From Amphirosellinia nigrospora (Eukaryota; Ascomycota; Sordariomycetes; Xylariales; Xylariaceae), in contig SCHM01000004.1 in NCBI GenBank assembly GCA_004123355.1, forward strand, positions 5,669,017-5,733,016: a DNA stretch of 64,000 nucleotides, given 5' to 3'. Shown here in pieces: positions 4,701 through 62,555 of this stretch (its first letter is position 1; each line of letters starts with the position of its first letter). Below the pieces are notes generated by a model, which had not been told where the DNA came from, ran no database searches, and saw nothing but the letters and a program-made list of their open reading frames with translations. A program made the translations under genes and the position numbers.

Positions 4701-7500
4701 TTTATAGTTAAAAACTAATAATATAGCTTTAAAGTTTTCTATAAGCTAGCTGTTTATATAATAAAAGCTTTTTTTATTTAAACTTTTATTTTTAAAGTTT
4801 ATAAAAAAATATTATAAATATAACTAATTTTTTAGCTTTACCGAAGCTATAATAAAAAACTATAAAATATAATATAAAAAAAAATACTAGCTAAGTTATA
4901 TATTTTTATATATAAATTTTCCTATAAAGCTTTATTAGCAATTTTAAATATATTTATAAAATAATATTATATATTTTTTTTTTTACTATTTTAATATATA
5001 TTTAATATTTCGATATAAATAACTAAAAATACTAAAAAAATATAATAAAAACTAAAAAAATAAATAAAATAAAAAATAACTAAAAAAAAGCTTTAAAATA
5101 AGCTAAAACTATTTATAATTATAAAAAATAAAAAAAATAAAAAAAATAAAATAAAAAACGCCCGGATTTTATTTATTTATAAGGTTATTTGCTTTTTTAG
5201 TTATTATATATTTAAAATATAATAAATATAAAAAACGGATTAACGCGTTAAAAATCGAATAAATAATTAATAATTATAAAAAGCTTAATATATAATAAAA
5301 TAGTTATTAAAAAAGCTTCGATAATAAAAATATTAATAAATCTTTTAGCTTAAAAAGCTATAAAAAGCTTTAATTAACTATTTAATAAATTATAATCGGC
5401 TTTTTAGCGAAAATTTTATATAATATAAAATAAATATTAAGCTATTTTTATAAAGTTAATAATAAATACAAAACTAAACAATACGTTATATTATCCGTAA
5501 AATATTATTAAAAAATAAAATAATTTAAAATAATAAAAAAAAAAAACAATTATTTAAGTTTAAAGTTTTATAATTTAAATAATAATAATTAACTATTATA
5601 TAAACTTAAAAATTATATAATTATTTATATTTAAAAATTACTAGTTTAGCTATAACGTTTAAAAAATAAATCGCTAATAAAAATAATTATAAAAAAAATT
5701 TTTACTATTTAATATAAATTTTAGGCCAAAAAATATATAATTTAAAAAATTTTAATGTTTAAATAATAGTACGATCGCTTATAATAAAATATTAAAAAGT
5801 TTAATAGTTTTTTAAATATATTAGTTTAAACTATTAAAATTAATATTTATATATTAATTAATATTAAAAATAACTAGCTATTTAGTTTATATATATAAAA
5901 ATAAAATATATTAAACGAAAATTATAACTATAAGCTATAAAAAAATCTTTGCTATATTAAATATATTAAAACTAATATGCGGTTTACCGAGCTTATTAAA
6001 ATAGCATTAATAAAATAGCCGATAAAATCGCTCGTTATATTTATTTATAATATTTTAATTTTTTTTATAAAGTTTTTTTAATATTAGCTATTATACCGAT
6101 TTTAATATATATATTATAAATATTATAACGTTAATAAATTTTATATAATTATTTTAATTTATTATATTTATATAAACTAAGCTAATAAATTAATAATAAC
6201 TATTATAAACTTTTATTTAATAAAAAAATAGTAATAATTTTAAAATTAACGGACTAATAATTATAAGCGTTTTTAAATATTTATATTAAATATAAAAATA
6301 TTTTAATTAACTAATAGTTATATATTTATTAAAAAATTTAGTAGCTAATAAAATTAAATAATATATTTTAATTTTTATTTATTATTATTTTAAAAGTTAA
6401 TAAAAAGGCCGTTAATATAATTATTAATATAAAACATTATATTTTATTATATTTTTTATAAGTTTTTTTTATAAATTTATATTATTTTATATTAAGTTTA
6501 TACCCGTTAAAAATTATTAATATGCTTATAACCTAGGCTATACTCCTACTTTATTTAATACTAAAGCTAATTAAACTATTATAAATACTTTAAATAATAC
6601 TTTTTTTACTAAACATATATTTATAAATTCTTTTATTTTATATAAACGTAGTAATAAGCTTTAGAAATAAAATATTATATATTTAATTTAAAATAAAATT
6701 ATAATTTATATACCGGTAAAAATAAAGTCTAAATTTTTTTAATAGCTTAAAATTATAATTAAATAAGCAGCTTAAGCTATTAATTAAAAAAAATCTAACG
6801 GAAAAATTAGCGGCTTATAAAAACAAAAAAAATATAAAAACGAAATAAAATATTAAATACTAAAAAAAAAAGCAAAACTTTATAAACAAAAATAGAATCG
6901 CTAAATAAAAAGCTAAATATAATATAGGAAAATTTTACGTTATAAACGCCCGGCTAGCTAAAATTAAATAGGCGTAAATTAAAATAGTTATTAAAACGAA
7001 AATTTAAAAAATTGTCCGAAATAAAATTTTATTAGTTTAAAAAGCATAAAAAACTAACTATTATATATTAAAAAGCTAGCAAAAATATAAAACTTACTTT
7101 AAGCGTATATTAACTATTTAAAAAAGCTATATAATAAATTAAACAAATAAAAAATATTTATATTTAAACTATTGTTTTTTAGCAACAAAAGATATTTATT
7201 TTAATATTATTTAATATTAAAAAATAACTAAAAAAATATAAGTTTAAAAACTTAAATAGTTTTATTTTATATAAAATTTTACTAAAAGCTTAATAAAGTT
7301 AAACTATTTAACTAGGATTAACTAATTATATTTAAAGGCATAAATGTTAATAAAGACCAAAAAATTATAATAACTACGATTTAAAAGTTTTTAGATTTTT
7401 TTTTTTTATATTATTATTACTTTTAAGCATATATATATATAGGTTTATAACTGGCCTATAAATAAAATTTAGCCTTAAAAATATCAGCTAATATTTAAAG
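1701..7500. other. RIP-degraded transposon-like body, left arm
   Basis: This stretch has no intact frame; every frame is broken by frequent TAA and TAG. It matches 43,590-49,300 in inverted orientation along its whole length. A purine-rich A-run stretch lies at 5,000-5,160. Block 2,430-2,920, the mirror of 48,150-48,640, resembles 58,000-58,480, so this unit belongs to a dispersed family with another, diverged copy in the window. I could not identify reverse transcriptase, integrase or a DDE motif by eye with any security, so the element class is left open. Confidence 0.6.
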
Positions 7501-7539
7501 AATAAACCTATTTAAATAGACTAATATAAATTGTTTTGT

Positions 7540-8620
7540 TTTTTTACTTAAGAGTGTTTATTGCCGAATTTAGTGGTTTAACCAACGTGGTAAACCTTAT
7601 AACGCAGTGCTTAGTATTCCGGTAAAATAGCTCGATATAATACTTACTTTGCTAGCGAATACCCGAAATAAATCTATAGTTTTATCTTATTACTAAGACT
7701 ATTAAAAAACCCGAGCAAAAGCCTAAGCTTTTAGTTAGCTTTGTGTAAAAAAAAGCATCCTAGTAAATAAATAGTATAAAGAAATAAAAGGCTTTATTAA
7801 TATTGTATTAATAAACTGTACAAAAAAAAAAAAGGATACAACGGGCTATAATAAATAAATAGTATAAAAACGGCTTTATTTATACTATAGTAAATAAATA
7901 ATACGAAAAATAGCTTTTTTAGAATTTAAAACTATAGGATATAACTTATAAAAGCTTTTTTAAATAGCTAAAACAAGCAGTCCTTCGCCCGGGAAAGCTT
8001 CCGGTAACTAGGTTATAGTTTTATACTTATTTATATTCCGTTAATCTAAATAATAAGTATATAAATTAAAATATTGCGCCGCTATTTAAGGCACACTTAC
8101 TTTTATGCCTTTTATATAACTATTTGTTTTTCTTTAACCATTCGTTTTTGCCCTAGCTATTTATCTTTGCCCTAGCTATTCGTTTTTCTTCGATTATTTG
8201 TTTTTTTTTTAATTATTTGTTTATTATTTAACATATCAACTTTAACAATAATGCCTAAAAAGTATTAAAAACTTTTAATATTATATAGAAAAAGGTTAAT
8301 AATAATAAGGTTTTATTTTATAATAAGCGTATTATATTTTTAAAAAAGCTTATAAAATCTAGCTAATTTACAACGTTAAAATAAAGCTTTTAATTCGATA
8401 CTATAGCTAGGTTTTTAATTATCGGACAAGCAAAAAGTATAACTAGCTTTTTTATAAACTAGTATTATAAGTTATTTTAATTGTATTATTTATATTATAC
8501 TTTTTTTTAAACTAAAATATTAATAACTTTTTTTAGTTTTATCTAGGATAAGTTATATTTACCAGCTATTAAACTAACGCCAAAACCTATAAAGTTCTAA
8601 TTTATAAAATAACAACTAAA
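7540..8620. other. Moderately RIPed noncoding segment, left arm
   Basis: This segment is less AT-rich than its surroundings and keeps phrases such as CCCGGGAAAGC at 7,988 and a run of pyrimidine-rich near-repeats at 8,110-8,220 (TTCGTTTTTGCCCTAGCTAT, imperfect, about 20 bp period, four to five copies). The mirror is 42,550-43,560, where the same sequence is far more RIPed. No coding frame recognised. Confidence 0.55.
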
Positions 8621-8634
8621 ACTAGGAATAGGGC

Positions 8635-8895
8635 AACGTGGAGGGCAACCTTGACACACATAAGGGCAACGTAGAAGGCAACCACCTCAATACACACAAA
8701 GCAACGTGGAGGGCAATATGGAGGGCAACCACCTTAACATACACAAGGGCAACGTAGAAGTCAACATAAAAGGCAACGTGGAGGGCAATATAGAGGGCAA
8801 CCACCTCAATACACACAAAGGCAACGTGGAAGTCAACGTAGAAGGCAATATAGAGGGCAATATGGAAGGCAACCACTTTAACACACACAAGAACA
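8635..8895 (+). repeat. 12-bp GC-richer minisatellite, left arm
   Basis: Units GGCAACGTGGAG and variants (GGCAATATAGAG, GTCAACGTAGAA) alternate with a 24-bp unit of the type GGCAACCACCTCAA followed by CACACAAG. All unit lengths are multiples of three, so it reads on the plus strand as Gly-Asn-Val-Glu and Gly-Asn-His-Leu-Asn-Thr-His-Lys repeats. A missing G near 8,700 breaks that frame and no gene start or body is attached, so the open frames across it are best taken as by-products of the repeat. The RIPed mirror array is 42,330-42,535. Confidence 0.88.
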
Positions 8896-8899
8896 CACG

Positions 8900-11800
8900 C
8901 GAGGATACATGCAAGGAGGACATACAATCTTAATCCCTCGAACTTTATTGCCCGCATACTAAACAACTTTACTATCAATCTCTAAGTTATTATACTAACT
9001 CCTTTATATGGCTATATATAAGCACTATGCCTAAGCTTAAGTTAAATTAAAAATATATTACTTTTTTTTGTTTTGTTTTTATAGTATTTAGTATAAATAA
9101 ATGGTTAACTATTATTTTTATATATAACTTAATTTATAAATTATAAATAAAGGCAAAAAAATTAAACAAAGCTATATTTCTTTAGGACTTTTTATAGCAA
9201 GTGGTTAAAGGCTTAAAAAAGTTTATTTATTATTGCTAGAAAAAAAAGATTATTATATATTAACTTTTAAAGAATAATTAACTTTATTTTTTTTAAAGCT
9301 TATAAATTTTATATATAACTAAACCGATTTATTAAATATGTTTATATTAATAAGCTTTGCTAAATATAAAAAAATAATATTTAGCTAAAAGTAATTAATA
9401 TTATTTAGTTGTTTTTAAAAAATTTTAAAGTTTAGTTTTAAAAGTTTAATCCGGGGAAGTAGCGCTATTTTATTATATCCGTTTATAAGTATTTAAATAA
9501 GTAAAAAAAACGCCTTTATTTGTTTTTATATACTTTATAAAAAATAGTAAGTTTTAAAAATGTTCTTGTAAAACTACTAAATTAGTAGGACACGCATTAA
9601 AATAGCACTAGCAATAAAAACATTTTTAAGTAATAATCTAGCCCCGGAAAAAAAGTAAACCTATGCTAAAGTGGGGTATATAGCGTATACGTATAGTAAA
9701 CACTATATTTAATATAATTAGTTAACTATATATTTCTAGTTATAAAAATAAGTGTTTAATTCTAGCATTAAATAGCTTAAAAGTTTTTTATTATTTTTTC
9801 CCTTAATACCACTATATTTATAACCAAGGTTAATAATAAAGTCTAATACTTAATTAGTTTATCAAGTGTATTACGTAATCATTAATGCTTAGTATTAAAT
9901 TATAAAATAGCTTAATCACTATTATTTATATTTTATATTTATACTATTTTAATTATATTTATAATGGGCGTTTGTTTTTACAAGTTTATACTGCCTTTAA
10001 ATATAAAAAGTAACCTAAATATAAGTGCTACTTAATAACCGTACGATAAAGCGCTTAATAGTATCTCTTTTACCGATTAAGTAAAGTACTTATAAGTATT
10101 TGCTTACTTAAGTAATATATATTTTTAATATAATAAAAGCAAATTATTTTTAAATGCTTTTTACTTTATTTTTTATAATATATAAGATCGATATAATACT
10201 TTTTATAATATATAAAAGGCTTTTAAAATAATAATTATATAGTAAGCTTTAACGTTAAAATAGCTACTTTAATTACGCAAACAAAAAAATATAAAAATCG
10301 ACATATATTATATTAAATTAAAACAATATAATAATTAGTTCTTACGTTTTATTTAAGCTATAAAAAAAAATACGGCGTTTATATAGCTTTTTAAGTTAAA
10401 TAAGCAGCGCTAAGTTATATAAAGCTAACTTTTTGCTAGGATATATATTTTTTCCGTAATTATATTCTTTATAAATTAATTAGCAAATTTTTTTACGTTA
10501 ATAAAAATAACATAATAAAATATATATTATACGTTTATTAAAATATAACCCGTTTTATTATAAATTTTTAAAAAATACCGAAATAACGTTTAAAAAGATT
10601 AGCTTATAAAAAGCAAATATATAAGCTAAAAAAATATATTATAACTAAGTTTTAATAAACTACTACTATATATATTAGCAGGTATATTTATTATATTAAT
10701 TATAAATAGTTTAAATTTGAAGTTATTTTATAAAAACTAAATAATATAGCTTAATATTTAATAAATATTAACGATAAATCGGGAATTTTTCGATATTTAA
10801 AATAGCTTTTAAAAAAGGATAAATTATAAAAACTTAAATATTATTTTTAAAAAAAAAACCTATAATAGTACTATGTTTTTATTTATAAATTATATTTTTT
10901 TTTAGCGATAATTTTTATTAAATAAAAAAAAATATCTAACTTATATTTTAAACTAGGCGAAAAACATAAAGCTAAAAGACTTATTATTTAATAGTAAAAA
11001 GTACGTATTATTATTCGATAAAAAAAGTATATATTATTACATTTAAAGGCTATTTTACTTAAATTATTAATATAGCTATATTTATTTTAAACAAATTAAT
11101 ATTTATTAACGTTTTATATATTTAGTTAATCGATCGGCTAATAATAAAGGGCTAAATAAGGTTTTATTAGATTAATATTAAACTTAGTTAAAAAAAATCT
11201 CAAACATTATTAATAAATCGAATAAATTATATGTTTTATTTTTATAGTTGTTTTTTTATAGAGCTTTTACCGATTATAAGCATTTTATTATAAGAGGAAT
11301 ATCATTATCGCTAATATATATTTATTAAACTTTTAAAACTAGGATTTTTTTAGTGCTAAGTATAAGCGCGAATAAAGGAGTATTATCGGCTAATATATTA
11401 ATTTAATATTTTTTTAGGGTTAAAAGTACGTTTATTAAGCTATATAAAAAAATATAGCTATATTATTAATATTATAATAAAAAGTATTTAATAATAGTAA
11501 TAATATTAAATTAAAAATACTTTAATATATAAAAATATATAGATTATCGATTAAGTTTTAATCTTTAAAAAAGACCGAATCGAATTTTTATTTATTTTGC
11601 CGAGAGCTTAAGATTGAATAGTCCTAGGTATACCGATTTATTTGTTAATTAGAAAAATAAAGTGAATCTATGTTTAACGGCGTAGTAAATATAGCTATTA
11701 CTTTTTTAACAGCAGTTTAATAGTAATAAGTTTTTATAGATTGGCAAGATATTTACCTTAAGCTATAAAAAATAATAACGACAAGTTTTTTTTTAACATT

Positions 11801-12678: not shown

Positions 12679-12861
12679 GTCGAAGCTGTTTTACGCTGCT
12701 TTTTTTACGCTACTAAGTTTAATACGTACGACGGCTTTAAACCTAACAAAGAAATAATGGATATTATACTCGAGCGTTATCCCGAACTAAACCCAGGACA
12801 TATAATCGAAGCACTAAAACATGTTCATATGCTAATATACAGGCGTCTTATGGCTATATAG
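12679..12861 (+). pseudogene. 60-codon open stretch ending in a hardly RIPed segment; unidentified protein tail
   Basis: From GTC at 12,679 to the TAG at 12,859-12,861 the frame has 60 sense codons with balanced composition, including Met-Asp-Ile-Ile-Leu-Glu-Arg-Tyr-Pro-Glu at 12,757. The codon just upstream (12,676) is TAA, which RIP can make from CAA, and the same frame continues upstream for hundreds of bases with only TAA and TAG stops. The ATG at 12,757 could start a 34-residue peptide, but the open frame begins before it, so a surviving C-terminus of a longer protein is more likely. The right-arm copy (37,800-37,990) is RIPed and not open. I do not recognise the family. The frame ends about 630 bp before the left-arm unit boundary at 13,490. 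Confidence 0.4.
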
Positions 12862-13490
12862 CTATTACAGTAAAATGGATACTGCCCCTTAGAGAAGCTA
12901 TTCCAAGGGCTATAGACCTAGACGGAGGATCTTTAGAGGTTAGGTCACGTGATCGCGTACACAGGTCTATATAGGGGGCACAGGGCAGTCAAACTGCCTT
13001 ACGCCCATACACACAATATATGGCTTTTAACCCCTGCAAATCTCCGTAACAATCCCTTACTAGTAAGTAGTGTATTCACTTCAAAAAAGGATAAAGGAGT
13101 AGGGCTACGCTAGGGCTGCCCCTGCAAGGAAGAATCTCTTTAACACAGGTACTTAAGATGTGGCTCCAGGGTGGCGACTGGCAGAGCCCTGGCGGGCACT
13201 GCAAGCCAGCCCCACCCCACAGCTATAAGTATTTAGCCCACCACAGAAACCTAGACTTAGCCCTTTACTTAATCAACCAACCTAGTATATTGAGACTTGA
13301 TCTACACAGCCCAAACCGCAATAGTGAAGGCCCCGTAGGTTACTCAATATAGGTTGACAAGCACGCACAAAGAAAGCTACCCGGGGACTTAGCGTGGCGT
13401 AAAAGGAAGCGCAAAGGTAAGGGTGGAAGAAAGGTGAAGTGGATACTATAAGGATCCACCGGGTTGCTAAATTTAGCCAGGGCAAAAATT
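12700..13490 (+). other. RIP-spared, GC-richer terminal segment of the left-arm unit
   Basis: Composition changes abruptly here to something near balanced, with many CA, TG and GG dinucleotides, and returns to almost pure A+T right after 13,490. It includes TCACGTGAT at 12,946, a TATATAGGGGGC at 12,968 that could be a promoter box, and a GC-rich stretch at 13,158-13,225. The end reads GGTTGCTAAATTTAGCCAGG at 13,463-13,482. The mirror 37,388-37,930 is homologous at both ends but RIPed, lacks about 200 bp of 13,120-13,330, and has foreign sequence in place of 12,885-13,075. Short open frames inside (13,158-13,352 plus; 13,282-13,485 minus) overlap on opposite strands and show no protein character. 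Confidence 0.75.
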
Positions 13491-13502
13491 TAATAATAAA
13501 AT

Positions 13503-16500
13503 AAATTTAAATTATAATAATAAAATATAGTTTTAAAATAAATATTTTAAATAATATTAAAAAAAACTATTTTAATTAATATAAAATTATAATATATAAT
13601 TTATATATAATTTATAATAATTTAAATCTTTATTATTATTTTTTATTTAATAATTTTTAGCTAATTAAACTAGTTTATATTTTTATAAAAATTTAGCTAA
13701 TTATATATAATTAAAAAAAATTTATAAAAAAATTTATTTATATTAAAATATTATTTAAAAGCTTAAAAGTTTTTAAAAAATATAAACTATTTAAACGTTT
13801 ATATATATTTAATAATAATAAATATTTTTAAAATATTAATATAAAATTTAAAAAATTTAATAAAAAATAATTAATAAAAAACTTTTTTAATATAATAATA
13901 TTTTTTAATTAAAATAAACTAAAAATAATATTTAAATATTATATATATTTTTTAAATATATTAAAAATAATAATAATATTAATAAAAATAATAAAAATAA
14001 AAATAAAAATAAAAAAATTTATTTATATATTTTTAAATATAATTAAAAAAATTATATATTTTATTAATATAATATTAAATTATTTATATTATAAAAACTA
14101 ATAATAATAAATTTATTTTTATAATTAAAATAAACTAAAAATTAATAAAAAAAACTAATTATATTAATATAAATAATATAAACTTTTTTATAAAAATTTC
14201 CGATTATTTTATTTTATAAAATAAAAATATAATTATTAAAAATATTAATTTTATTAAATTATTATAAATTAATAATTATTTAATTTTTATTTATATTATA
14301 AACTTTTTTTAAATAATAAATATAAAATATATAAAAAATAATTTTATTTATTTAAATTATATAATTTATTTTATTAAATTTATTATAAATTTTATTAAAA
14401 ACTTTTATATTTTTTAATTAAAAAAAAAACTTTTATATTTAGTTTTATTTTTTATTAATTATTAATAAAAAAATTTTAAGCTATTTTATTTTAAAAATAT
14501 TAATTTTATTTTTATTTATTTAAATATTATAAACTTTAATAATTTTAATAAATTTAACTATTTTAAAAACTTTTTAATATAAATACTATTATTATTAATT
14601 ATATTTTAAAAAAATTTATAAACTTTTTAATATTTAAAATAAAATATATTTTTAAAAATTTAAACTTAAAAAGTTTTTAATATTAATATATATAGTTTTT
14701 TTATTAATAATATAGTTTTAATATTTATAATAAAATTATATTTATATTAATAAAAAAAATATTTAAAAATTAAATATTAAAAATATTAATAATTAAAAAT
14801 AAAAATATTATTTTTTATATAAAACTAATAATATAATTATTAGTTTTATTAAATATTATTATAAAAATAATTAAAATTAATTAATTTATTTATAAATATT
14901 AATTTTATTAATATTATATTAATTATAATAATTATAATAATTATATTATTAAATTTAATATTTATAATAATAAACGAATTTAAAATAATTAAAAATTTTA
15001 AACTAATTATTTTAGCTAATAATATTATTAAAATAATTATTATAATAATTAAAGTTTTTATAGTTAATTTTATAAATTAATATATATATTATTATTATAA
15101 TTTTTATAAATTTATTTTAATTTAATGTTTTTATTTATTTTAATTAAAATATTTATAATAATAATTAAAATAATTTTAAAAAATTTATATTTATTATAAT
15201 ATTTATTATTTTTTATATATTATTAAAAATAAAAATTATAATTAATAATAATAGTTTATATTTAATTTATAAATATATTTTTATTAGTTATAATAATTAT
15301 AATATATATTAATAATTTTTATATATATTTATAATTATAAATTATAACTTTAAAATTAATAATAAAATTATTAAAATTATAAAAATAATAATATTTTTAA
15401 AATAATTAATAATAACTTTATAAAAAAAAAAAGTTATTATTAATTAATATATTTAATTATAGTTTTTTATTATAATTTAATTTTTTTTTATATTTTAATT
15501 TTAAACCGTTTATTATTATTAATTTTTAAATAAAAAACTTAAATTTAATTTAACGTATTATTTTTACGCGTTTATTTTTAATAATAATTATTTAATTTTT
15601 ATATTTTTTATTATATATTTTATATTTAAAATATTATTATTAATTATAGTTTTATTTATATTTAAATTAATATATATTTTTATATTTTAACCGGTTAATA
15701 AAATATATATATAAAAACAAAAATATATATAGCTTAAATATAAAGTTTTATTATATATATTTATATTTAACGTTTTAAATATAAATATTTTAATCTAAAA
15801 ATTTTATCCGATTTATTTTATAAATAACGAATTATTATTAAAAATATTTTATTTTATAATTATATTTTTTTAGTTAATTTATATTAGTTTAAATATTAAA
15901 AAGTTTATTTTATAAAAATAATATTTAAATATAATATTTATATATATATTATTTAAAAAAATAAATAAAAAAATATTAATATATATTATATTTTAATAAA
16001 ATATAGTTTATATTTTTATATATAAAATAAAATATTAAATAATTTATATTTTTATAATATTTATAATAAATAAAAACTAAACTAAATATATAATAAAAAA
16101 TTTATTATTATAATATTTTTTATTAATATTATATTTAGATTTTTTTTATTTAAACGTATATTATTAGTTTAATATATATTATAATAATTATTATATTTTT
16201 TATTATAATATATTTTCGATTATTATTATAATTATAGTTATAATTATAGCTATAATTATAGTTATAGCTATAGTTTTAATTATTATTATAATTATTATTA
16301 TATTTTTTATTTTTTATTATATTTTTTATTTTATAAGTATTTTTTTATTATTTTTTTATAATAGCTATAATTTTATTATAATTATTATTATATTATTTAT
16401 TATATTTATTATTAAAATAATAATAATATTTAAATAAATTAATATTTATTTTTTAATTAATAAATTAAAATATTTATAATTATTATATTTAAAATATAAA

Positions 16501-18774
16501 TTTTAAAAGTTTTTATTATTATTTTTTAAATAGTTATAAAAAGGTTTAACGTTTAAAAATTTATATTTTATTTTTTATTTTAATTTATAATATATTTATT
16601 AATTTTTTTATATATTTATTTAATATTTTTTTTTAATAAATAAATATAATTAATAATTATTTTAATTTATTAGTTATAAATATTTTTTATAATATTTTAT
16701 TAAAATTATTTTGCGTTAAAGTTTTATTTTTATAAATATATTATAGTTTATATTAAATAAATTAAATAAATATATTTTTATTTTATATTATATTAAATAA
16801 AAAAAAATTATTTTTAAAAAACTTTTTTATAATATATTTAAAGTATATTTTAAAACGTTTTTTAGCTTTTTAAATATTAATTTAAATTTATTTTTTATTA
16901 AATATAATAATTAATAAGCTTAATTTATTATTTTATTATAAAAAAATAAAACTTATAAAAAATAATTAAATAATTTTAAAATTTAATTATTATTTAATAA
17001 TTTATATTATTAAATTTATATATAGTTTAAATATATTAAAAAAATATATATATATATTATATAATAATATTTTTTATTTATAATAATTTTTTTATTTTTT
17101 AAATTATTTTAATTAAAATTTAAAATTTTAATATTTTATATTTAATTTTATAAATATTTTTTATTATAAATATAATTAAAAATAAAGTTTTATAATAATA
17201 ATATTTATATTATAGCTATAATTATTAAAGCTAGCTTTATTATTTAATAAATTTAAATTATATTAAAATTATTTGTTTTTTATTATTATTTTTATTATTA
17301 TTATTTTTATTATTATATTATTTATTTCGATTAAAAAATATATTCTAACGTTTTTATAATATTTTTAAAATAAAAAAAAAAATAAAAATAAAAATATTAT
17401 TATTATATTTATTATATTTAAAAATAAAAACAAAAATATTATTATTATTTTTTTTTTATATAGCTATATTATTAAAATTAATTATTATTTAAAAAGTTTA
17501 TTAGTTTAATATAGTTAAAAATAAAAAATAATAAAAAATAATATTAATTTTTTAAAACTTTATAAAAATGCTAAAATTTAATTTATTTATATAAATTAAA
17601 TTTATTATTAATTTATTTAATATTTTTTATAATTTTTTATATTTAGTTTAATTTAATTTTGTTTAAAATTATTATTATTATTATTTTAAAATATATTTAT
17701 AATTTTAAAGTTAAATTTTAAATATTAGTTTAATTTTTTAAATAAAAAGTTTATAAGTTTTTAATTTATTATTATTAATTAAACTTTATTAATATTAATA
17801 TTAGCTTTAATTATTTTTACGCTAATTTTATTTTTTTTATTTTTTTTAATTTTTTAAATTATATTATTAAATAACTTATAAACGTTATTAATAAAATTTA
17901 TATAATAATAATATTTTATTTTATTAACGTTTATTTTAATAATAATTATTTTTAAAATTAAAATAAAAATATTTTTAAATAAAAGTTTTTAATAATAAAT
18001 TTAACGTTTAATTTAATAAATAATTAAATATATAAAAAAATTAATATTATTTTAATTTTATAATTTATTATTTTTATATAATATTATAATAATAATTTAA
18101 AAATAAAATAAATTATAATAAATAAAATAAAATAATAATATAATTTATAACTATATTTTAATAATAAAACTAATATATTTATAAACTTTAATAATAAATT
18201 AAAACGTTTAAAAATTTTATAATAAAACTAAATATTTAAAACAATTAATTAATAAAAATTTATAATGTTTATAATTTTATAATAATTTTAGTTACGCTAT
18301 AAAAATTAATATATTTAAAATATAAAAATATTTTATTAAGCTTTTTTTAAAACTAAATAATTAGCTTATTTAAAAGCTTATAAAAATATAAAAATAAAAA
18401 TATAAAATAAATCGATAGTAAACGTAATATTTATTTTAATTAACGGACATATATAAATTACGCGCTAATTATTGCTAGAAAAATAAATATTTTTAACTTT
18501 AAAATTAAAATAAAATAATTTTTAATATAGTTTATATTTATAATAACTACGTAATAAAATATTATTTTAAAAAAATATTTAAGTTATAAAATAAAGCTTA
18601 ATTAAAAAAAAAGTTTATTATTAAATTTACGTAATAAATCTAATAATAAATTTTTTAATTAATAATATACTAGCTGTTTATTTAAATATAAATATTATTA
18701 AGTAGCTTTTTTTTACGCTTTACGTAAAAAAGCTACTAGTAATATAAACCTTTTAAAAGCTTTATTAATTTTTA
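13503..18774. other. Second arm block, almost pure A+T, no gene
   Basis: This is the most extreme composition in the window; I found no CA or TG between 13,501 and 14,580. It matches 29,215-36,335 in reverse complement once the right-arm insertions are removed. A palindromic AT array lies at 16,200-16,330. Frames are closed throughout. It probably derives from a transposon different from 1-13,490, because the composition shifts and the RIP-spared end of the first unit stops exactly where this begins. Confidence 0.6.
16200..16330. repeat. Palindromic AT repeat (TATAATTATAGC)n, left arm
   Basis: Alternating units of ATAATTATAGTT and ATAATTATAGCT run for about 130 bp. Each unit is itself nearly self-complementary. 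The partner array is 31,850-32,030, where AGCTATAATT is repeated with the same 12-bp rhythm. Confidence 0.8.
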
Positions 18775-19331: not shown

Positions 19332-20995
19332 TATAATATTTTTTTTATACGATAATTATTTAATTATATTTTATTATTTATTTAGTTTTTAGCTTTTTTA
19401 ATTTTTTAATTTTATTTTTTTTATAATAAGTATTTTTTTAATTTAAATTTGTTTATTTTTTATATAATAATATTAATTTAGTTTATAATTTATTTTTAAA
19501 GTTTAATTATTTTAAATTAAAATAATATAATTTAATATTTAATATATTATTTTTTTTATAATTAAATTAATTATATTTAAAATAACTATAAAAAAGCTAT
19601 TTTAATATTATATAATTTATATTTAATATATTAAACTTATAATTTAGCATTTTTTACGTTATAAAGTATTTATAACTTTTAAATTTAAAATCCGTTAAAT
19701 AATTTTAAAAATATTTTAGTTAAATTTTTAAACAAAAATTATAAAATAATATATTTTAAATCGTATAAAATAAAAACTAGCTTTTTAAAACTTTTTTTAA
19801 TATTTTTAAATATTATTATAACGTTATATATAATATAAAATAATATAAAAAATTTTTTTTTTAATATAAATAATATAAATTTAAGCTAATTTATCGATTT
19901 ATTTATTATATAATTATTTTAAAAACTAAAATAATTAATATTTAAAAGCTAAAGTTTATATAATAATAAATAAATATATATAAAAAATAATAATTTATAT
20001 TTTTTAATATATAATTTAAATTTAATAAAATAATAACTTTTATAATTATTTAAAATTAAAAAGCAATAAATACTTTTTATATAATGTATTATATAATAAT
20101 TAAAATATTTAATTTAATTTAAACTTTTTTTTTTTAGTTTAGTTATTTTTATTATTTTAATTTTTTAATCGGTTAATAAATAGTTATTTTTATATTAAAA
20201 TAATAAATAAGTTAATTTAACTAAAATAATATATAACGGAATAAAATAGCTATATAATAGAATAGCGTAAATAATAATGCTTAAGCTTTATAAAAAAAGT
20301 ATAACTAAATAAAAAAAGGTTTTTTTGTTAAAAAAAAAATTTTAGCTTTATTTTTTAAAAAAAAAATTCGGTTATTTTAATTAAAACTTTTTATTTTTAG
20401 CTATTAATTTAACTTATTAATATATAATATTATAATAATTTATATTATATTTATATTATATTTTTAAATAATTTATATTTATTTTAGTTATTTATATTTT
20501 ATTTTTATTTATAAGCTAAAAGTTTTATTTATTTAATAATTAATATTTTTATATTTATATAATAAAAAAAAAATTCGGTTTATAATTTTATTTTAATATT
20601 AAAGCTATTTTTAAAAATAACTATATAAAATTTTTATTATTATTAAAAAAATATATTTTTAATTTATTAGTTTATTTTAGTTATAGTTTTAATAAATTTA
20701 TAGCTTTTTAAAACTTTTAAATAAATATTAGTTTTTTTAGCGTAAAATTTTTTTATTTAAATAAATACGTTTATTTAAATTTTATTATAGTTATAGTTTT
20801 TATTTAATATTTAATATTATTTATAGTTTATAAAAATTTAATATTATTTTATTTTATAAAATATTAAAATAATTAATTATTAATATTTAATTATATAATA
20901 ATAATTATTTATTTAGTTTAATATTATAAAATAAATTTTATAATAATAACTATTTTAAATTTTATTAAATATATATAAATAGCTATAGTTTTAAT
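19332..20995. other. RIPed AT-rich spacer sequence with an X-like start fragment
   Basis: No gene seen. At 20,275-20,345 the sequence GCTTTATAAAAAAAGTATAA followed by an A-rich run and TTTTTT resembles the X start. What follows to about 20,420 keeps the X rhythm (A-run, then TTCGG, then AACTTTTTATTTTTA), so this may be the start of a diverged X relative. Beyond that, nothing but A+T-rich sequence up to the full X copy. Confidence 0.45.
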
Positions 20996-22673
20996 ATTTA
21001 AGTTTTATAAAAAAATATAACTAAATAAAAAAAGTTTTTTTATTAATAAAAAATTTTTTTATTTTTTATATTTAAATAAAAAATTTTTTTACCCGAATTA
21101 AAAACTTTTTATTTTTATTTATTATTATATATATTTAATTTTTATATTTATTTTTTATTATATAAATAATTATAAATTTAATAAAATAATTTAAAATTAA
21201 ATATTTATATTAAATAATAAATAATAATATAATAAATTATAAAGTTTTATTTTTAATTTTTTTTATTATAAATTATATTAAATTTAATTTTATATTAAAT
21301 TTAATTATTTAATAATTATATATTTTATTAAACTTAATTATTTAATAATTATATATTATATTAAATATAATTATTTAATATTATTTATTTAATTATATTT
21401 ATAATTATTTTATTTTTTTATTTTTTAATTTAATATTAATTTAAATATTTATTATTTTAAATTTAAACTAATATTATTATTAAAATTTTATTTAAATATA
21501 ATTTTTATTAAATTATTTTTTAAAAAAACTATAATTATTATAAAATTAACTATTATATTAATATAATAAATATAATAATATTTTTTATAAAATATTTATT
21601 TATAATTTTTTTATTTATTTTTTTATTTTTTATTATAATATTTTAAACGTAGTTTTTTAATTTTTAAAAACTTTAAAGCTTTAAATTAATTATAATAAAT
21701 ATATTTTTTAAGTTTTTAAGTTTTTTTTTTTAAACGTTTTAGCTAGTTTATAAAATTTTTTTTAAACTTATTAATAAATTTAAGTTTTTTTTAAAAAGTT
21801 TTTTTTTTTAAATATTTTAATTAATTTATAAAGTTTTTTTTAAACTTATTAATAAATTTAAGCTTTTTTTAAAAAGTTTTTTTTTTTTAAACGTTTTAGC
21901 TAATTTATAAAATTTTTTTAGATTTATTAATAAGTTTAAGTTTTTTTTAAAAAGTTTTTTTTTTTTAAACGTTTTAGCTAATTTATAAAGTTTTTCTAAA
22001 TTTATTAATAAATTTAAGCTTTTTTTAAAAAAAATAAAAATTTAATATATTATAAAAATTAATATATTTTATAATAATATTATTATTTAAAATATAAAAT
22101 TTATAATTATATTTAAAATTAAAAATAGTTTATAATTATATTTAAAATTAAAAATAATTTATAATTATATTAAAATTTAAAATAATAATTTATATTTATT
22201 AAAAAACTTTTTTAATTTTATTTAAATTAAAAATCGTTTTAAAGATTTTAATATTATAATAAGTTTTTTTTTCTTAAAATAAAAATTAATTATTTATTAT
22301 AATATTTAATTTTTTAATTTTATTTTATAGCTTAAAATTATAGTTTAATTATAAATAATAATATAATTTTAACGTATATTATTATTATTAATAAAATAAA
22401 TAATAAAAAATATTATATATTAATATTTATATTTATAAGTAAATTTATTACTATTATTAATTAAATAGCTAAATATTTTTATAATATAATTATATAATTA
22501 TATAAAAAACAAAATATTATATTAATAAATTAAAATAAAATAACAAGTTTTATTATATATAATTTATTAAAAAAAGCGAACTAATATAACTAGTAATTAT
22601 AACTTATTTATTAACCTAAATATATAGTTTTTAAAAACTTAAGCATTTTTGCCTTTAAATTAAAAAGCTTTTA
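20996..22673 (+). repeat. X dispersed repeat, full copy 1
   Basis: About 1.68 kb, starting TTTAAGTTTTATAAAAAAAT and ending after AAGCATTTTTGCCTTTAAAT and AAAAAGCTTTTA. It aligns end to end with 33,559-35,147 and 61,599-63,253, all on the plus strand. Inside are four 78-bp tandem units (21,720-22,030) and several 29-bp units. No coding capacity is visible. Beginning TA and ending TA fits a RIPed TG...CA solo LTR, but a non-autonomous DNA element is possible. Confidence 0.82.
21720..22030 (+). repeat. 78-bp tandem repeat inside X copy 1, 4 units
   Basis: Units start with a T-run, then TAAACGTTTTAGCTAATTTA, then a second T-run, TTATTAATAAATTTAAG and a third T-run. Starts near 21,731, 21,809, 21,888 and 21,966. 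Two of the four units match almost exactly; the second has ATATTTTAATTA where the others keep ACGTTTTAGCTA, a RIP-type change. Confidence 0.88.
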
Positions 22674-25805: not shown

Positions 25806-26149
25806 ATAATAAAAAGGATTGCTCGACACGCTTAAATAGCAAGTTTAAATTTAAGGACATTATGTTTTTAATACTTTCCACTATTTTACTTTTATTTAAA
25901 TTAAGTTAAAGTTAAAGCAGCTAAAAAGCAAAGGATCGGAAAATTTAAAATTAATAGTTTGCTTAACTTTTAATAAAAAGTACTTAGGTTAAAATTCGTA
26001 AGTTAGCCGATTTTACACGTTTAAAGGTCTTGTAACTAATAAATTACCACTTAAATCACATATATAATGGTCTAGGTTAAAAACTATCATTTTTGCAAGC
26101 CATTAAGCGAAGTATTTTATTTATTTTCACTCTTAGGCAAAATAAACCC

Positions 26150-26250
26150 AAGAAATACTACAAACGCCATTTCTAGGCCTATCACGCGGAGAATCTCCCT
26201 AGGTCGAATAGACCCCCAAAACACTAAAAACACCATTTCTAAGCCCATCA
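26150..26250 (+). repeat. 50-65 bp imperfect repeat, 2 units, GC-rich island
   Basis: Two units share ACACCATTTCTAAGCCCATC (first unit ACGCCATTTCTAGGCCTATC) and both end CGA(ATAGA)CCCCC. An open frame on the minus strand (26,117-26,383) runs through them, but the repeats themselves account for it. Confidence 0.75.
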
Positions 26251-26334
26251 CCCTAGAAATCGACCCCCATAAGCCGGCTAATACGCCCCTTGTGGCACCT
26301 GGCACCCCTAGGCACCCACCCCAACACTCTAGTA

Positions 26335-26560
26335 CCCTTATAAGGCTATCACCACTCCCGTATTTGGTGTTCCTGTCACCCACGTGAGTAGTAAGGGTGT
26401 CTATGACCGTAGATACCCTTAAAGCTATTGTAACCCCTATATTTGTTGTTTATGTCTGCCACGTCGGCGGTGAGGGTCCTTATAACCGCAAATACCCCTG
26501 TAAAGCCATTACTAACCCCGTATTTAGTAGAGGGGTTAGCCACGATTTTATCGGTATCGG
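26335..26560 (+). repeat. 80-bp minisatellite, about 2.5 units, hardly RIPed
   Basis: Unit 1 is 26,381-26,459 and unit 2 is 26,460-26,540, each starting CACGT and containing ACCGNAGATACCC or ACCGCAAATACCCC and then CCCCTATATTTGTTG or CCCCGTATTTAGTAG. A partial unit lies before and after. Open frames on both strands (26,376-26,594 minus; 26,397-26,621 plus) are by-products of the repeat. Confidence 0.85.
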
Positions 26561-28577
26561 TGTTAGTTATATAAGTTTTTGTTCTTTTAACCATATTAAA
26601 TTTATATTTAACTTGCTTTAAGTTTGTTTAGCTTTAAATTTATATTCGCTAAAATTTATAACTATTTTAGGGCGTAATATAACTATTTTTAAGCTAGCGA
26701 TAATTTATAGAAGTTTAAGCTTTTAATTATTTATATTTCCGGTGTTTTTGGTTTTTTATAGCATTTTATCTAGATTATTTTTTTTAAGTTATTTTTTTTA
26801 AATTATTTCTTTAATTATTTTTTCCCGAATTATATTTTTTTAAGCTATGTTTTTTAGTACTGTTTTAATATTATTAAAGTTAGTTAACCGTGGTTTTTTA
26901 ACCAAGTTATTAGTTTAACCTAAACTTAATGTATAAAAAAAGCTAAGCTTTAAGTTAAGTAGTAAAAACGTTTTAAGTATTGTTATACTTTTAGGAAAAA
27001 TATATTAATTTAGTTTTATAGCCGTTATATTTTTAATATAGTATATTTTATAATAATATTTAAAAGCTATAATATTAATAGCGTTATAAATGTTTGTTTT
27101 TTTGCTGTTAAATTGTTATAAAGTATTATACGGTATAAATATACGTATATAATGCGTTAAAAAATAAATCGAAAAAAGCTGCGCGTTAAAAAAGTTATAA
27201 AAATGCTTTATTAAAAAGATATTATTTATAGCACTAAAAGTTTTTCCTATATATTTTAAATTATAAGCGGACTATTATTTGTTAGCTTATTTTAATTACC
27301 TTTATTTTTTTTATTGCTTTTATTTTAGCTGCTATTATAAGAATAAACGGAAGCATATATTTAAAAAACAATATAGTAGGCCTAAACACTAGGGCTAATA
27401 TAACTGTTTAAGCTTTATTATTAAAATAATATTAGCAATTAATATAAAAAGGATAGGAAAATCTAGTATAAAAAACTAACCGGTTTGTTTTCTTTAAATA
27501 TAATATAATAATTTTTACTAGTAAAAGGTAATTCTTTTTAAATTATAGGTTTAACTTTTAGCTACGTTTAAGTTTATATTTTCTATATTATTATTATTAT
27601 TTTTACTATTTTTATATTAGTAAAATAAAGCTAAACTTAGATTGTTTTATTAAACGGGGTTTTAGCGTTTTTTAAAATAATGTTAAATTATTTTAAATCC
27701 GGAAATCTTGTATTTAAGGGCAAATATTAAAGGTTGTAGCGCTAAACGGGCTAGGGAAATTAATAAGTATATTTATTAAGCAGTATAAATTAGTTTATAA
27801 AGCTATAAAATAAAATAACGGACGAACAAATTTTCTAGATGTTTTTTTAGTAATAAATTAAGTAGTAAATTATAAGTTTATAGCTAATAATATAGTACGT
27901 TAGTATTTTTTGTTTATTAATACTTGGTTTAAAAATTAATATAAATTAGTTTAGTTGTTTTTTTATTATAAAGGAAAGGTTAAAGCTTAGTTTAACTAGG
28001 ATTAAAGCGAATATAATATTAGCTTATAAATTATTATTTTAGCAACCGGAATTATTATTATTTTAATAATTAGGATTATTGTTTTTATTTATATGATTTT
28101 TTTTTTGCTTAATTTTATTTACGAATTTAAAGCAAAGGTATAATTTGTTATATATATATTAAAAGTTATTAAGTGGCTTTTTAAAACTTGGTAAATTTTA
28201 GCGAACTAGTTAATAGGTTGGCGATTTTTAATAGTAAAACGAACGTTTTACTTTTTTGATTACGATTCGCTTATAACTGTTATAAATATATTATAAAAAA
28301 AAATAAAGAAAAAATAATATAAAGCAAAGTAAAGTAATATTTAAAGGATAAAATGTTTTAATGTTTAGTTTAGTTAAAAATAAATTATAAAAGTAAGCGG
28401 TTAGCTTAATAATAAGTAAATAAGTATTTTATCGGCTTAAAGCGGTAATATTAAGCGGTGTGTGTGTAAACTAGGCAATTTACGGAGGTTTAAGCTAAAA
28501 TCACCTATTATCCTTAATATTAAAATAACGTGTAAATTTAATAGCTAAAATATAGTTTAAGTATTAAACCTAACGTA

Positions 28578-30766: not shown

Positions 30767-30772
30767 AGTAAT

Positions 30773-30985
30773 TAATAAATAAAATATAGGTAAAATTTAT
30801 ATATTGAAAAAAATATAAGACGAAGTCTTCAAATCTATATGAATTCTACAAGTTTAAATAATATTGTGTGTGTGTGTGGTGCGAAGCCACACGCATAGAC
30901 TAAGCGCCAGCCACGCGGTGGCTGGTGCGCGCCCGCTAGGGCGGAGTGTGTGCGCGTACGCGCACACCCCTTGCCCGCGCGTATC
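30773..30985 (+). mobile_element. 213-bp GC-rich multi-hairpin insertion with 6-bp target duplication
   Basis: AGTAAT flanks the insert on both sides (30,767-30,772 and 30,986-30,991). The left arm has the empty site, TTATTAAATAATAAAGC, at the reverse complement of about 17,225-17,245. The 5' half is AT-rich. The 3' half is a GC island with a (TG)7 run (30,865-30,878) and a chain of stem-loops: AAGAC-GAA-GTCTT (30,817-30,829), GTGTGG-TGCGAAG-CCACAC (30,874-30,892), CCAGCCAC-GCG-GTGGCTGG (30,907-30,925), CGCCC-GCTA-GGGCG (30,930-30,943) and a perfect 20-bp palindrome (30,948-30,967). No RIP is visible, as expected for a repeat too short to be recognised, or for a late arrival. The open frame 30,864-31,055 is not a gene. 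Confidence 0.75.
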
Positions 30986-30999
30986 AGTAATAAAGCTAG

Positions 31000-33558
31000 C
31001 TTTAGCGGCTATAATTATAGCAATAAATATTATTATTATAAAACCTTATTTTTAATTATATTTATAATAAAAAATATTTATAAAATTAAACGTAAAATAT
31101 TAAAGTTTTAAATTTTAATTAAAATAACTTAAAAATAAAAAATCGTTATAAATAAAAAAATATATTATATAAATATATATATATTTTTTAATATATTTAA
31201 ACTATATATAAATTTAATAATATAAAATTATTAAATAATAGCTAAATTTTAAAATTATTTAATTATTTTTTTATAAGTTTTATTTTTTATAATAAAATAA
31301 TAAAATTAAGCTTATTAATTATTATATTTAATAAAAATAAATTTAAACTTAATATTTAAAAAGCTAAAAAAACGTTTTAAAATATACTTTAATATATTAT
31401 AAAAAATTTTTTTAAAAAACTTTTTTTATTTAATATAATATAAAATAAAAATATATTTATTTAATTTATTTAACGTAAACTATAATATACCCGTAAAAAT
31501 AAAACTTTAATATAAAATAATTTTAATAAATAAAATATTATAAAAAATATTTATAATTAATAAGCCGAAATAATTTTAATTATATTTATTTATTAAAAGA
31601 AAAATATATTAAATAAATATATATAAAAAAATTAATAAAATATTATAAATTAAAATAAAAGCAAAATAAATTTTTAACGTTAAATTTTTTTATAACTATT
31701 TAAAAAATAATAATAAAAATTTTTAAAATTATATTTAAATATAATAATTATAAATATTTTAGTTATTATTAATTAAAAGTAAATATTAATTTTATTATAA
31801 ATATTAATATTATTTTAATAAAAATATAATAAATATATAATAATAATTATAATTATAATTATAGTTATTATATAAAAAATAATAAAAAATATATTATAAA
31901 ATAAAAAATAATATATATAATAAAAATAAAAAATATAATAATAATTATAATAGCAATTAAAATTATAGCTATAATTATAGCTATAATTATAGCTATAATT
32001 ATAATAACGATTATAAATATTATTATAATAAAAAACACGATAGCTATTATAATATATTTAAGCTAAATATATGATGTTTAAATAAAAAAATCTAAAATAT
32101 AATATTAATAGAAAATATTATAATAATATTATTTTTTATTATATATTTAGTTTAGCTTTTATTTATTCTAAATATTATAAAAATATAAATTATTTAAATA
32201 TTTTTATTTATATATATAAAAATTAAGCTATATTTTATTAAAATATATAATATATATTAATATTTTTTTATTTATTATTTTTAAATATATATATATAAAT
32301 ATTATATTTAAATATTATTTTTATAAAATAAACTTTTTTAATATTAAACTAATATAAATTAGCTAAAAAAAATATAATTAAAAAATAAAATATTTTTAAT
32401 AATAATTTATTATTTATATAAAATAAATTAAATAAAATCTTTAAATTAAAAATATTTATATTTAAAATATTAAATATAAATATATATAATAAAACTTTAT
32501 ACGTAAATTATAAATATTTTTATTTTTATATATATATTTTATTAATTAGTTAAAACGAAAAATATATAATAATTTAAATATAAATAAAACTATAATTAAT
32601 AATAATATTTTAATACGTTAAAATATATAATAAAAAAACATAAAAGCTAATAATTACTATTAAAAATAAACGGGTAAAAAAACGTATTAAATTAATTAAG
32701 TTTTTTATTTAAAAATTAATAATAATAAATAGTTAAAATTATAAAATATAAAAAAAAAATTAAATTATTAATAAAAAACTATAACTAAATATATTAATTA
32801 ATAACGATTTTTTTTTTTTTATAAAATTATTATTAATTATTATAAAAATATTATTATTTTTTTATTTTAATAATTTTAATATTAATTTTAAACTTTTAAT
32901 TTATAGTTATAAATATATATAAAAATTTATTAAATATATATTATAATTATTATAGCTAATAAAAATATTTATATAATAAATTAAATAAAACTATTATTTA
33001 TTAATTATAATTTTATTTTATAATAATATAAAAATATAATAAATATTATAATAATATAAAATTTTTAAAATTATTTTAATTATTAATATTATAAATATTT
33101 AATTAAAAAATAAAAATATTAAACTAAAATAAATTTATAAAAAATATATATAATAATAATATATTAGCTTATAAAAATTAGCTATAAAAATTTTAATTAT
33201 TATAATAATTATTTTAATAATATTATTAATTAAAATAATTAGTTTAAAATTTTTAATTATTTTTAATTTATTTATTATTATAAATATTAAATTTAATATA
33301 ATATTAATTATTATAATTATTTAATTAATATAATATTAATAAAACTAATATTTATAAATAAATTAATAAATTTTATAATTATTTTTATAATAATATTTAA
33401 TAAAACTAATAATATATATTATTAGTTTTATATAAAAAATAATATTTTATTTTTAGCTATTAATATTTTTAATATTTAATTTTAAATATTTTTTATTAAT
33501 ATAATATATAATTTTATTATAAATATTAAAACTATATTATTATTAAAAACTATATATA
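31000..33558. other. RIPed right-arm sequence, mirror of about 14,700-17,230
   Basis: Inverted match to the left arm with no gene; includes the palindromic AT array at 31,850-32,030. In one plus-strand frame that array reads Tyr-Asn-Tyr-Ser repeats, but the flanking frame is closed. Confidence 0.6.
31850..32030. repeat. Palindromic AT repeat, right arm
   Basis: AATTATAGCTATAATTATAG repeats at 31,960-32,010 after a less regular AT-rich lead. It is the partner of 16,200-16,330 and longer than it. Confidence 0.8.
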
Positions 33559-35147
33559 TTTAAGTTTTATAAAAAAAGTATAATTAAATAAAAAAAAGGT
33601 TTTTTTATTAATAAAAAATTTTTATTTTTTATTTTAAATAGAAATTTTTTTACCTAAATTAAAAACTTTTTTGTTTTTATTTATTATATATATATTTAGT
33701 TTTAATATTTATTTTTTATTATATAAATAATTATAAATTTAATAAAATATATTTAAAGTTAAATATTTATATTAAATAATAATATAATATAAATAAATTA
33801 TAAAGTTTTATTTTTTAATTTTTTTTTATTATAAGTTATATTAAATTTAATTTTATATAAATTTAATTATTTAATTAATATATATTTTATTAAATTTAAT
33901 TATTTAATAATTATATATTATATTAAATATAATTATTTAATATTATTTGTTTAATTATATTTATAATTATTTTATTTTTTTATTTTTTTAATTTAATATT
34001 AATTTAAATATTTATTATTTTTAAATTATAAACTAATATTATTATTATAAACTTTATTTAAATATAATTTTTATTAAATTATTTTTTAAAAAACTATATT
34101 ATTATAAAATTAGCTATTATATTAACGTAATAAATATAGTAATATTTTATAAAATATTCGTTTATAATTTTTATTTGTTTTTTTATTTTTATTATAATAT
34201 TTTAAATATAGTTTTTAGGTTTTTAAAAACTTTAAGCTTTAAATTAATTATAATAAATGTATTTTTTAAATTTTCGAGTTTTTTTTTTTTTAAACGTTTT
34301 AGCTAGCTTATAAAGTTTTTTTTAAATTTATTAATAAATTTAAGCTTTTTTTAAAAAATTTTTTTTTTTAAACGTTTTAGCTAACTTATAAAGTTTTTTT
34401 CGGATTATTAATAAGCTTAAGTTTTTTTTAAAAAGTTTTTTTTTTTAAACGTTTTAATTAATTTATAAAATTTTTTTTAAATTTATTAGTAAATTTAATA
34501 TTTTTCGAAAAAAATAAAAGTTTAATATATTATAAAATTAATATATTTTATAATAGCGTTATTATTTAAATTATAAAGTTTATAATTATATTTAAAATTA
34601 AAAATAACTTATAATTATATTTAAAATTAAAAATAGCTTATAATTATATTTAAAATTTAAAATAATAATTTATACTTATTAAAAACTTTTTTAATTTTAC
34701 TTGGGTTAAAAATTGTTTTAAAATTTTAATATTATAATAAGTTTTTTTTATTTAAAATAAAATTAATTATTTGCTATAATATTTAATTTTTTAATTTATT
34801 TTATAGCTTAAAATTATAGTTTAATTATAAAATAATAATATAATTTTAACATATATTATTATTATTAATAAAATAAATATATAAAATATTATATATTAAC
34901 GTTTATATTTATAAGCAAATCTATTATTATTATTAATTAAACGGCCGAATATTTTATATATAGTTATATAATTACGCAAAAAAACAAATAATATAGTTAA
35001 TAATTAAATAAAATAAAATAAGTTTTACTATATATAATTTAAAAAAAAAACAAAATAATATAACGGCAATTATAACTTACTTATTAATTTAAATACGTAG
35101 TTTTTAAAAACTTAAGCATTTTTGCTCTTAAATTAAAAAACCTTTAG
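33559..35147 (+). repeat. X dispersed repeat, full copy 2, inserted in the right arm
   Basis: Aligns from TTTAAGTTTTATAAAAAAAG to AAGCATTTTTGCTCTTAAAT and AAAAAACCTTTA. Left-arm positions 14,660-14,700 give the uninterrupted site, so this copy arrived after the arms separated. The flanks share TATT on both sides (ATATATATT before, GTATTAATATT after; empty site TATATATTAATATT), a possible 4-5 bp target duplication. It has three 78-bp units (34,270-34,510). Confidence 0.82.
34270..34510 (+). repeat. 78-bp tandem repeat inside X copy 2, 3 units
   Basis: Three units with TTTTAAACGTTTTAGCTAGC, TTTTAAACGTTTTAGCTAAC and the RIPed TTTTAAACGTTTTAATTAAT, separated by T-runs and ATTAATAAATTTAAGC. Confidence 0.85.
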
Positions 35148-36335
35148 TATTAATATTAAAAAATTTTTTTAAGCTTAAGTTTTTAAAAATATATTTTATT
35201 TTAAATATTAAAAAATTTATAAATTTTTTTAAAAATATAATTAATAATAATATTTATATTTATATTAAAAAAGCTTTTAAAATAGCTAAGTTTATTAAAA
35301 TTCTTAAAGCTTATAATATTTAAATAAATATAAATAAAATTAATATTTTTAAAATAAAATAATTTAAAATTTTTTTATTAATAATTAATAAAAAATAAAA
35401 TTAAATATAAAAATTTATTTTTTTAATTAAAAAAATATAAAAGTTTTTAATAAAACTTATAATAAATTTTATAAAATAAATTATATAATTTAAATAAATT
35501 AAGCTATATTTTTATATATTTTATATTTATTATTTAAAAAAAATTTATAATAAATAAAAACTAAATAATTATTATTTATATAATTTAATAAAATTATTAT
35601 TTTTATAATAATTTTTTTTTTTATAAAATAAAATAATTAAAAGCTTTTATAAAAAAGTTTATATTATTTATATTAATATAATTAGTTTTTTATTAATTTT
35701 TTTTTATTTTAATTATAAAAATAAATTTATTATTATTAATTTTATAATATAAAATAATTTAATATTATATTATTAAAATATATAAATTTTTTTAATTATA
35801 TTTAAAAATATATAAATTTTTTTTTATTTTTATTTTTATTATTATTTTATTAATAATATTATTATTTTTTTTAATTTATTTAAAAAATATATATAATATT
35901 TAAATATTATTTTTAGTTTATTTTAATTAAAAATATTATTATATTATTAAAAAAGTTTTTTATTAATTATTTTTTTATTAAAATTTATAAATTTTATATT
36001 AATATTTTAAAATATTATTATTAAACGTATATAAACGTTTAAATAATTTATATTTTTTAATAATTTTTAAACTTTTAAATAATATTTTAGCGTAAATAAA
36101 TTTTTTTATAATTTTTTTTTATTATATATAATTAGCTAAACTTTTATAAAAATATAAAATAGTTTTATTAGCTAAAAATCGTTAAAAAAAATAATAAATA
36201 ATAACCCGGGCTATTATAAATATTATATATAAATTATATATTATATTTTATATTATTAAAATAGCTTTTTTTAACGTTATATAAAACATTATTTATTTTA
36301 AAACTATATTTTATTATTATAATTTAAATTATATT
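35148..36335. other. RIPed right-arm sequence, mirror of about 13,503-14,660
   Basis: Inverted match to the left arm, for example AATTATATATAATTAGCTAA near 36,120 against the reverse order at 13,690. A short GC remnant AACCCGGGCT lies at 36,202. No gene. Confidence 0.6.
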
Positions 36336-62324: not shown

Positions 62325-62555
62325 AAATTTTTTTTTTTAAACGTTTTAACTAATTTATAAAGTTTTTTTAAATTTATTAATAAGTTTAAACTTTTTTTAA
62401 AAAGTTTTTTTTTTTAAACGTTTTAACTAATTTATAAAATTTTTTTTAAATTTATTAATAAATTTAAGTTTTTTTCGAAAAGTTTTTTTTTTAAACGTTT
62501 TAATTAATTTATAAAGTTTTTTTAAACTTATTAATAAATTTAAACTTTTTTAAAA
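62325..62555 (+). repeat. 78-bp tandem repeat inside X copy 3, 3 units
   Basis: Three units with TTTAAACGTTTTAACTAATT or TTTAAACGTTTTAATTAATT between T-runs and TTATTAATAAATTTAA. Confidence 0.85.

Follow-up and report, generated by a model that had tools for sequence, protein, structure and literature searches.

The window under study, a 64,000-nucleotide stretch of Amphirosellinia nigrospora DNA (contig SCHM01000004.1, positions 5,669,017 to 5,733,016), is spanned from position 36 to 51034 by a large imperfect inverted repeat centred near 25 kb. The outermost matching pieces of this repeat are 36-1547 and 51034-49516; others pair 1558-8149 with 49451-42952 (87%) and 14685-17242 with 33560-30988 (90%). 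One arm carries a short GC-rich insert, which had been singled out in an earlier note made from the letters of the window. Consistent with that description, the insert is 45% GC and the 480-bp flanks around it are 7% GC. Its own composition is uneven, with 12% GC in the first 50 bases and 64-72% from base 101 onward. The features discussed below are as follows.

16638..17827, minus strand: opposite arm of the inverted repeat; the empty site is near 17239-17242 (alignment of joined flanks)
30768..30772, unstranded: left 5-bp target-site duplication, GTAAT (boundary table)
30773..30986, plus strand: the insert, very probably a solo LTR, 214 bp, ends TAATA...TATCA (40-copy alignment, boundary table)
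30817..30829, plus strand: small predicted stem-loop AAGAC-GAA-GTCTT, nested in a longer imperfect stem (RNA fold; position from sequence)
30866..30900, plus strand: predicted stem-loop in which a TG run pairs with its own complement (inverted repeat I6, RNA fold)
30904..30928, plus strand: predicted stem-loop with 11-bp arms, 91% complementary (inverted repeat I11, RNA fold)
30948..30967, unstranded: perfect 20-bp palindrome (core of inverted repeat I1, 30934-30981)
30987..30991, unstranded: right 5-bp target-site duplication, GTAAT (boundary table)

The left edge of the insert is where it had first been drawn, at 30773; the right edge moves by one base to 30986, giving a length of 214 rather than 213 bp. 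The duplication described as AGTAAT is present in a shorter form, as the 5 bp GTAAT. The sixth letter beside it is the last base of the element itself on the right and a coincident A on the left.

We searched the 48.1-Mb genome (11 contigs) from which the window comes for further copies. With the 213-base insert as query, 40 of 45 candidates were scored; each of these proved to be a match, with identities of 74-100%, and the window copy is among them. An 18-base pattern and searches with two other copies yielded additional copies, some of them fragments. The earlier note had made mobility hinge on the insert not being single-copy, and the family numbers more than 40 dispersed copies in this genome (a lower bound), spread over nine contigs. 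Within the window we found no second full copy; the many short A+T-rich matches there were judged not to be copies. We fetched the 40 copies with their flanks and aligned them to set the element ends. The aligned copies are ~205-229 bp long, with termini TGATA...TATCA in undamaged copies and TAATA...TATTA in damaged ones; the window copy has TAATA at its left end, where undamaged relatives have TGATA. The family thus does have terminal inverted repeats, contrary to the first description, albeit short ones.

We observed that nine elements bear the unit at both ends, on the same strand and in direct orientation. Family-specific internal sequence lies 3' of each first copy and 5' of each second copy. 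By coordinates, seven of these elements span ~7.75-8.2 kb, one is an internally deleted form of 2.2 kb, and in one the presence of other DNA extends the span to 22.6 kb. Aligned with one another, the fetched elements agree at ~78-87% in their main co-linear pieces (L066 was outside this comparison). Each pair is bordered on its outer sides by a 5-bp duplication, which is exact in eight of the nine elements and agrees at four of five bases in the ninth (L021/L013), where the mismatch is T/C, as expected from RIP. The aligner had misplaced an edge in two pairs (L023/L026 and L039/L043), which we corrected by eye. For a tenth 5' copy followed by internal sequence, L042, no 3' partner was found. 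LTR retrotransposons are recognised by direct terminal repeats that have TG...CA ends and a 5-bp duplication on their outer sides. Found in this arrangement at both ends of nine longer elements elsewhere in the genome, the unit is an LTR.

This arrangement bears directly on whether the insert is a MITE or another small DNA transposon, as its shortness, lack of coding capacity, stem-loops and target duplication might suggest. MITEs have terminal inverted repeats of ~10 bp or more and are not known to serve as direct terminal repeats. The inverted termini here are just 5 bp, and the unit bounds elements of 2.2-22.6 kb as direct repeats, with the duplication outside, leaving a DNA transposon with next to no probability.

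Several stem-loops, the TG run and the perfect 20-bp palindrome described earlier are present. Folded as RNA, the insert is more stable than expected by chance (z = -6.2, none of 200 shuffles equally stable), and the undamaged relative L009 is more stable still (z = -8.2). Stable hairpins would fit either of two sources that had been proposed, a GC cluster of organelle origin or a DNA copy of a structured RNA. However, no Rfam family reached its gathering score anywhere in the window, and a search of 401 bases around the insert gave four Rfam matches (E 0.00038 to 0.17), each far below its gathering score. Of the 62 predicted RNA pairs, four carry a change on both sides, and the covariation term is -0.05; we do not take covariation as proof of RNA structure, because RIP alters palindromes symmetrically and can mimic compensation. 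Copies on nine contigs that have 5-bp duplications and also serve as terminal repeats are also hard to reconcile with an organelle or RNA origin, to which we assign a negligible likelihood. The mobile-element reading of the earlier note therefore stands as to an insertion with target duplication, and falls as to a small hairpin element, an organelle cluster or a copied RNA. The hairpins are features of the LTR of this family and may act in transcription, in termination or in the dimerisation of RNA.

To define a set of lone copies, we removed from the 40 aligned copies nine sharing internal sequence on the right, nine sharing it on the left and three truncated ones, leaving 19. The earlier note had proposed a search for copies with 6-bp duplications; the lone copies have duplications of 5 bp, exact in 16 of the 19. 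Two others agree at four of five bases and one at two. When the flanks of the same lone copies were paired wrongly (n = 342), full 5-bp agreement occurred in 1.75%. Recombination between the two LTRs of an element leaves a lone LTR with its own target duplication. The same origin of solo LTRs is given in the consulted part of a study of the Podospora element crapaud (PMC10787394).

We therefore consider it very likely that the insert is the solo LTR of an ~8-kb retrotransposon whose internal region was lost by LTR-LTR recombination, and which was then damaged in part by RIP. The family with its ends, the duplication, the relatives bearing this LTR at both ends, the empty site and the RIP pattern are observed; the origin of the lone state by recombination and the order of events are what we infer. 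The inverted repeat around the insert would have formed first, with both its arms. An ~8-kb LTR retrotransposon would then have entered DNA that was already A+T-rich, duplicating the five bases GTAAT, and recombination between its LTRs would have removed the internal region, leaving the single 214-bp LTR. By C-to-T changes on either strand, RIP has damaged this LTR in part, mostly in its left half, whereas the right half and its stems, rich in CpG, were spared. Two copies count against the solo-LTR reading: in L015 only two of the five duplicated bases agree, though a one-base shift would restore the match, and the internally deleted copy L067 has no clean duplication.

Consistent with insertion after the inverted duplication, the other arm holds the empty site that had been noted there. 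Once joined, the insert flanks align with the other arm (17827-16638) over 1,224 positions at 88%, and the alignment crosses the junction with no insert and a single target copy, reading ATAAT. The nearest gap, of 6 bases, begins 13 bases to the right of the junction, and a gap of 5 bases follows farther on. Because the other arm has the empty site, the insertion would postdate the duplication; the alternative order, in which one arm regained an empty site, would be less likely.

The insert had been described as free of RIP, which comparison with L009 contradicts. The window copy differs from this relative by 17 G>A, 5 C>T, 1 A>G and 0 T>C changes and 5 transversions – that is, 22 C:G-to-T:A changes against one in the opposite direction. 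By context, the changed sites are 9 of 37 CpA, 10 of 21 CpT, 3 of 26 CpC and 0 of 34 CpG, and it is the abundance of CpG in the right half of the window copy that makes this half look spared. Nine damaged LTRs picked from elements show change rates of 0.70 at CpA, 0.49 at CpT, 0.25 at CpC and 0.20 at CpG.

Damage differs between lone and paired copies. A GC content of at least 0.49 was found in 16 of the 19 lone copies and in none of the 16 paired LTRs, whose maximum is 0.48; two additional 5' LTRs have 0.21 (L045) and 0.26 (L042). The left flanks of the lone copies are 5-20% GC in 18 of 19 cases (41% in L033), and the right flanks are 3-28%. RIP hit the full copies, and most solo copies escaped, although the DNA around the lone copies is very A+T-rich. 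Using a short diagnostic stretch, whose letters RIP could mask in damaged copies, we sorted the 19 lone copies and 16 paired LTRs into subgroups. One comprises six lone copies and no paired LTR; a second comprises two lone copies and both LTRs of one element, and the others form the main group. An inserted T in the alignment yields the same split, L025 excepted. When one copy of the lone-only subgroup served as query, no paired LTR belonging to it was found. Three lone copies on different contigs (L009, L010 and L014) are 0-1 substitutions apart.

The GC contrast, the lone-only subgroup and the near-identity of these three copies would fit the 214-bp unit being a self-contained, short non-autonomous LTR-only element that is reverse-transcribed or integrated in trans, rather than a remnant of recombination. 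Lone LTR-sized units might then multiply themselves with integrase supplied by full-length elements or by others while staying below the length that RIP recognises, which would explain both the undamaged lone copies and the subgroup without paired members; if true, this would be a RIP-proof parasite consisting of one LTR. Yet plain recombination between LTRs, with RIP later striking the full copies, accounts for the same facts, and the consulted part of the crapaud study describes the same contrast together with subfamilies lacking full copies (PMC10787394). An LTR-only element is accordingly very improbable in our estimate, and we see just as slim a chance that such units multiply themselves below the reach of RIP. 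We know of no mechanism for an LTR-only unit.

The remaining points against a solo LTR come from the internal regions of the paired elements, where no search found a gag-pol domain. These regions are strongly damaged. GC is 9-17% in the first six full-length elements retrieved, so that coding traces may be erased and the absence of domains cannot separate autonomous from non-autonomous elements; the copy on contig C11 (C11:235600-243500) is 4-11% GC in nearly all 300-bp steps, fully damaged. Pfam scans of three element copies, translated in their three forward frames with stops written as X, found no match. A tblastn search of the elements with the proteins of seven rve-selected loci of the same genome gave nothing at 45 bits or more, and a permissive search gave a best match of 28.3 bits (E 0.061, in L065). 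Among the best candidates listed, none of the rve, RVT_1 and RVT_2 matches of the genome lies within the nine elements.

We also used a home-made RIP-tolerant alignment, on three copies and later on eight, with the minus strand and the reversed sequence as controls. With three copies, real, minus and reversed scores were mostly all above those of block shuffles. With eight, the plus strand exceeded both controls in 14 of 32 query-by-element rows, by at most 6.6 bits and at inconsistent positions (best 40.3 against 29.3 and 33.7, in L051). We read these scores as no coding signal, a reading that stops short of proving absence. The method detects close relation, as in a minus-strand match at L065 (158 against 39.5 and 50.1), and is weak for distant relation, giving 42.1 against 29.7 and 29.0 for a known RIP-damaged RVT_2 locus with a Ty1-type query. 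The L065 minus-strand match apparently falls in a neighbouring Ty3-type element. A damaged RVT_1 match with eight stops (C10:749957-750379) starts ~526 bases after the lone LTR L031; its link to the family is doubtful, because the sequence directly after L031 is not family internal sequence. Contigs C9 (1.33 Mb) and C11 (0.25 Mb) hold many of the RVT_1 and RVT_2 matches of this genome, most of them interrupted by few stops or by none, as though RIP were weaker on these contigs, although the family copy on C11 is fully damaged.

Priming sites were similarly elusive. The internal regions start GGTGCCGGC or damaged forms thereof, with no TGG start after the 5' LTR in the six elements compared. 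The best RIP-tolerant tRNA match there, among 20 of the 58 tRNA genes listed, covers 12 bases with 9 exact and lies off the CCA end. The longest complementarity to an element's own LTR is 5-9 bases, at places that differ between elements. Neither tRNA-type nor self-priming thus has a convincing site after the 5' LTR, and by eye no clear purine tract precedes the 3' LTR, where the common sequence is A+T-rich; both results count against the solo-LTR reading. A short inverted-complementary stretch does follow the 5' LTR (CCTGCT...AGCAGG in L054).

Fungi are already known to have solo LTRs that partly escape RIP, and the consulted part of the crapaud study had already reported the contrast between solo and full copies in Podospora (PMC10787394). 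In the Podospora anserina complex, LTR remnants of crapaud are either as numerous as full copies or far more so; full-copy LTRs are RIP-damaged, most solo and fragment LTRs stay high in GC, and subfamilies without full copies are reported (PMC10787394, as far as consulted). Damaged full-copy LTRs, GC-high solo LTRs and a subgroup without full copies are likewise found here (compared with the excerpted PMC10787394). The likeness is one of description: crapaud LTRs are 339-443 bp, against ~205-229 bp in the present family, and crapaud has copies with open frames, whereas none were found here (PMC10787394, same portion).

Fungal GalEa elements of the Copia group, as described in the consulted part of PMC5445492, also resemble the family. 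Their LTRs average 235 bp, end in ...CA and are flanked by a 5-bp duplication, and they have no recognised primer site but inverted complementary sequences or a hairpin just after the 5' LTR. GalEa LTRs, however, start with TGT, against TGA or TAA here, and are followed directly by a conserved 9-bp CHSeq1 (mostly CTGATCAGT or CTAATTAGT) that is absent here. GalEa elements are 5.4-7.0 kb long, whereas the present ones are mostly 7.75-8.2 kb, and no Copia reverse transcriptase was found in the present family. On the absence of CHSeq1 after the 5' LTR and of the TGT start, we rejected GalEa membership (on the same part of PMC5445492). In Aspergillus flavus, Gypsy solo LTRs and an LTR-only class, LTR2, occur in A+T-rich elements, according to the portion of PMC9910759 consulted. 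LTR remnants in RIP-made A+T-rich DNA are common to both genomes, and LTR2, known by its LTR alone, is likened to the present family by description (PMC9910759, same portion).

Read as a solo LTR, a puzzling GC island becomes an ordered insertion event, of little significance in itself. Together with the empty site, it places two events in order, an inverted duplication and then an insertion, and the family offers a clean case in which RIP damages full copies, lone LTRs escape it and CpG is spared. It also cautions that hairpin-bearing GC islands in RIP-made DNA can be plain LTRs.

Other GC-rich stretches and repeats occur in the window. A second GC-rich island lies near the centre of the inverted repeat at 26100-27000 (33% GC for 26001-27000); its relatives elsewhere are weak or short, the best being 68% over ~450 bases (C9:53190-53636). 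Two further GC stretches in A+T-rich DNA, at 8611-8920 and 12861-13480, contain 150-bp windows of 48-57% GC. A repeat of ~1.7 kb is present in three places, 20993-22673, 33541-35164 and 61583-63268, at 87-91% identity.
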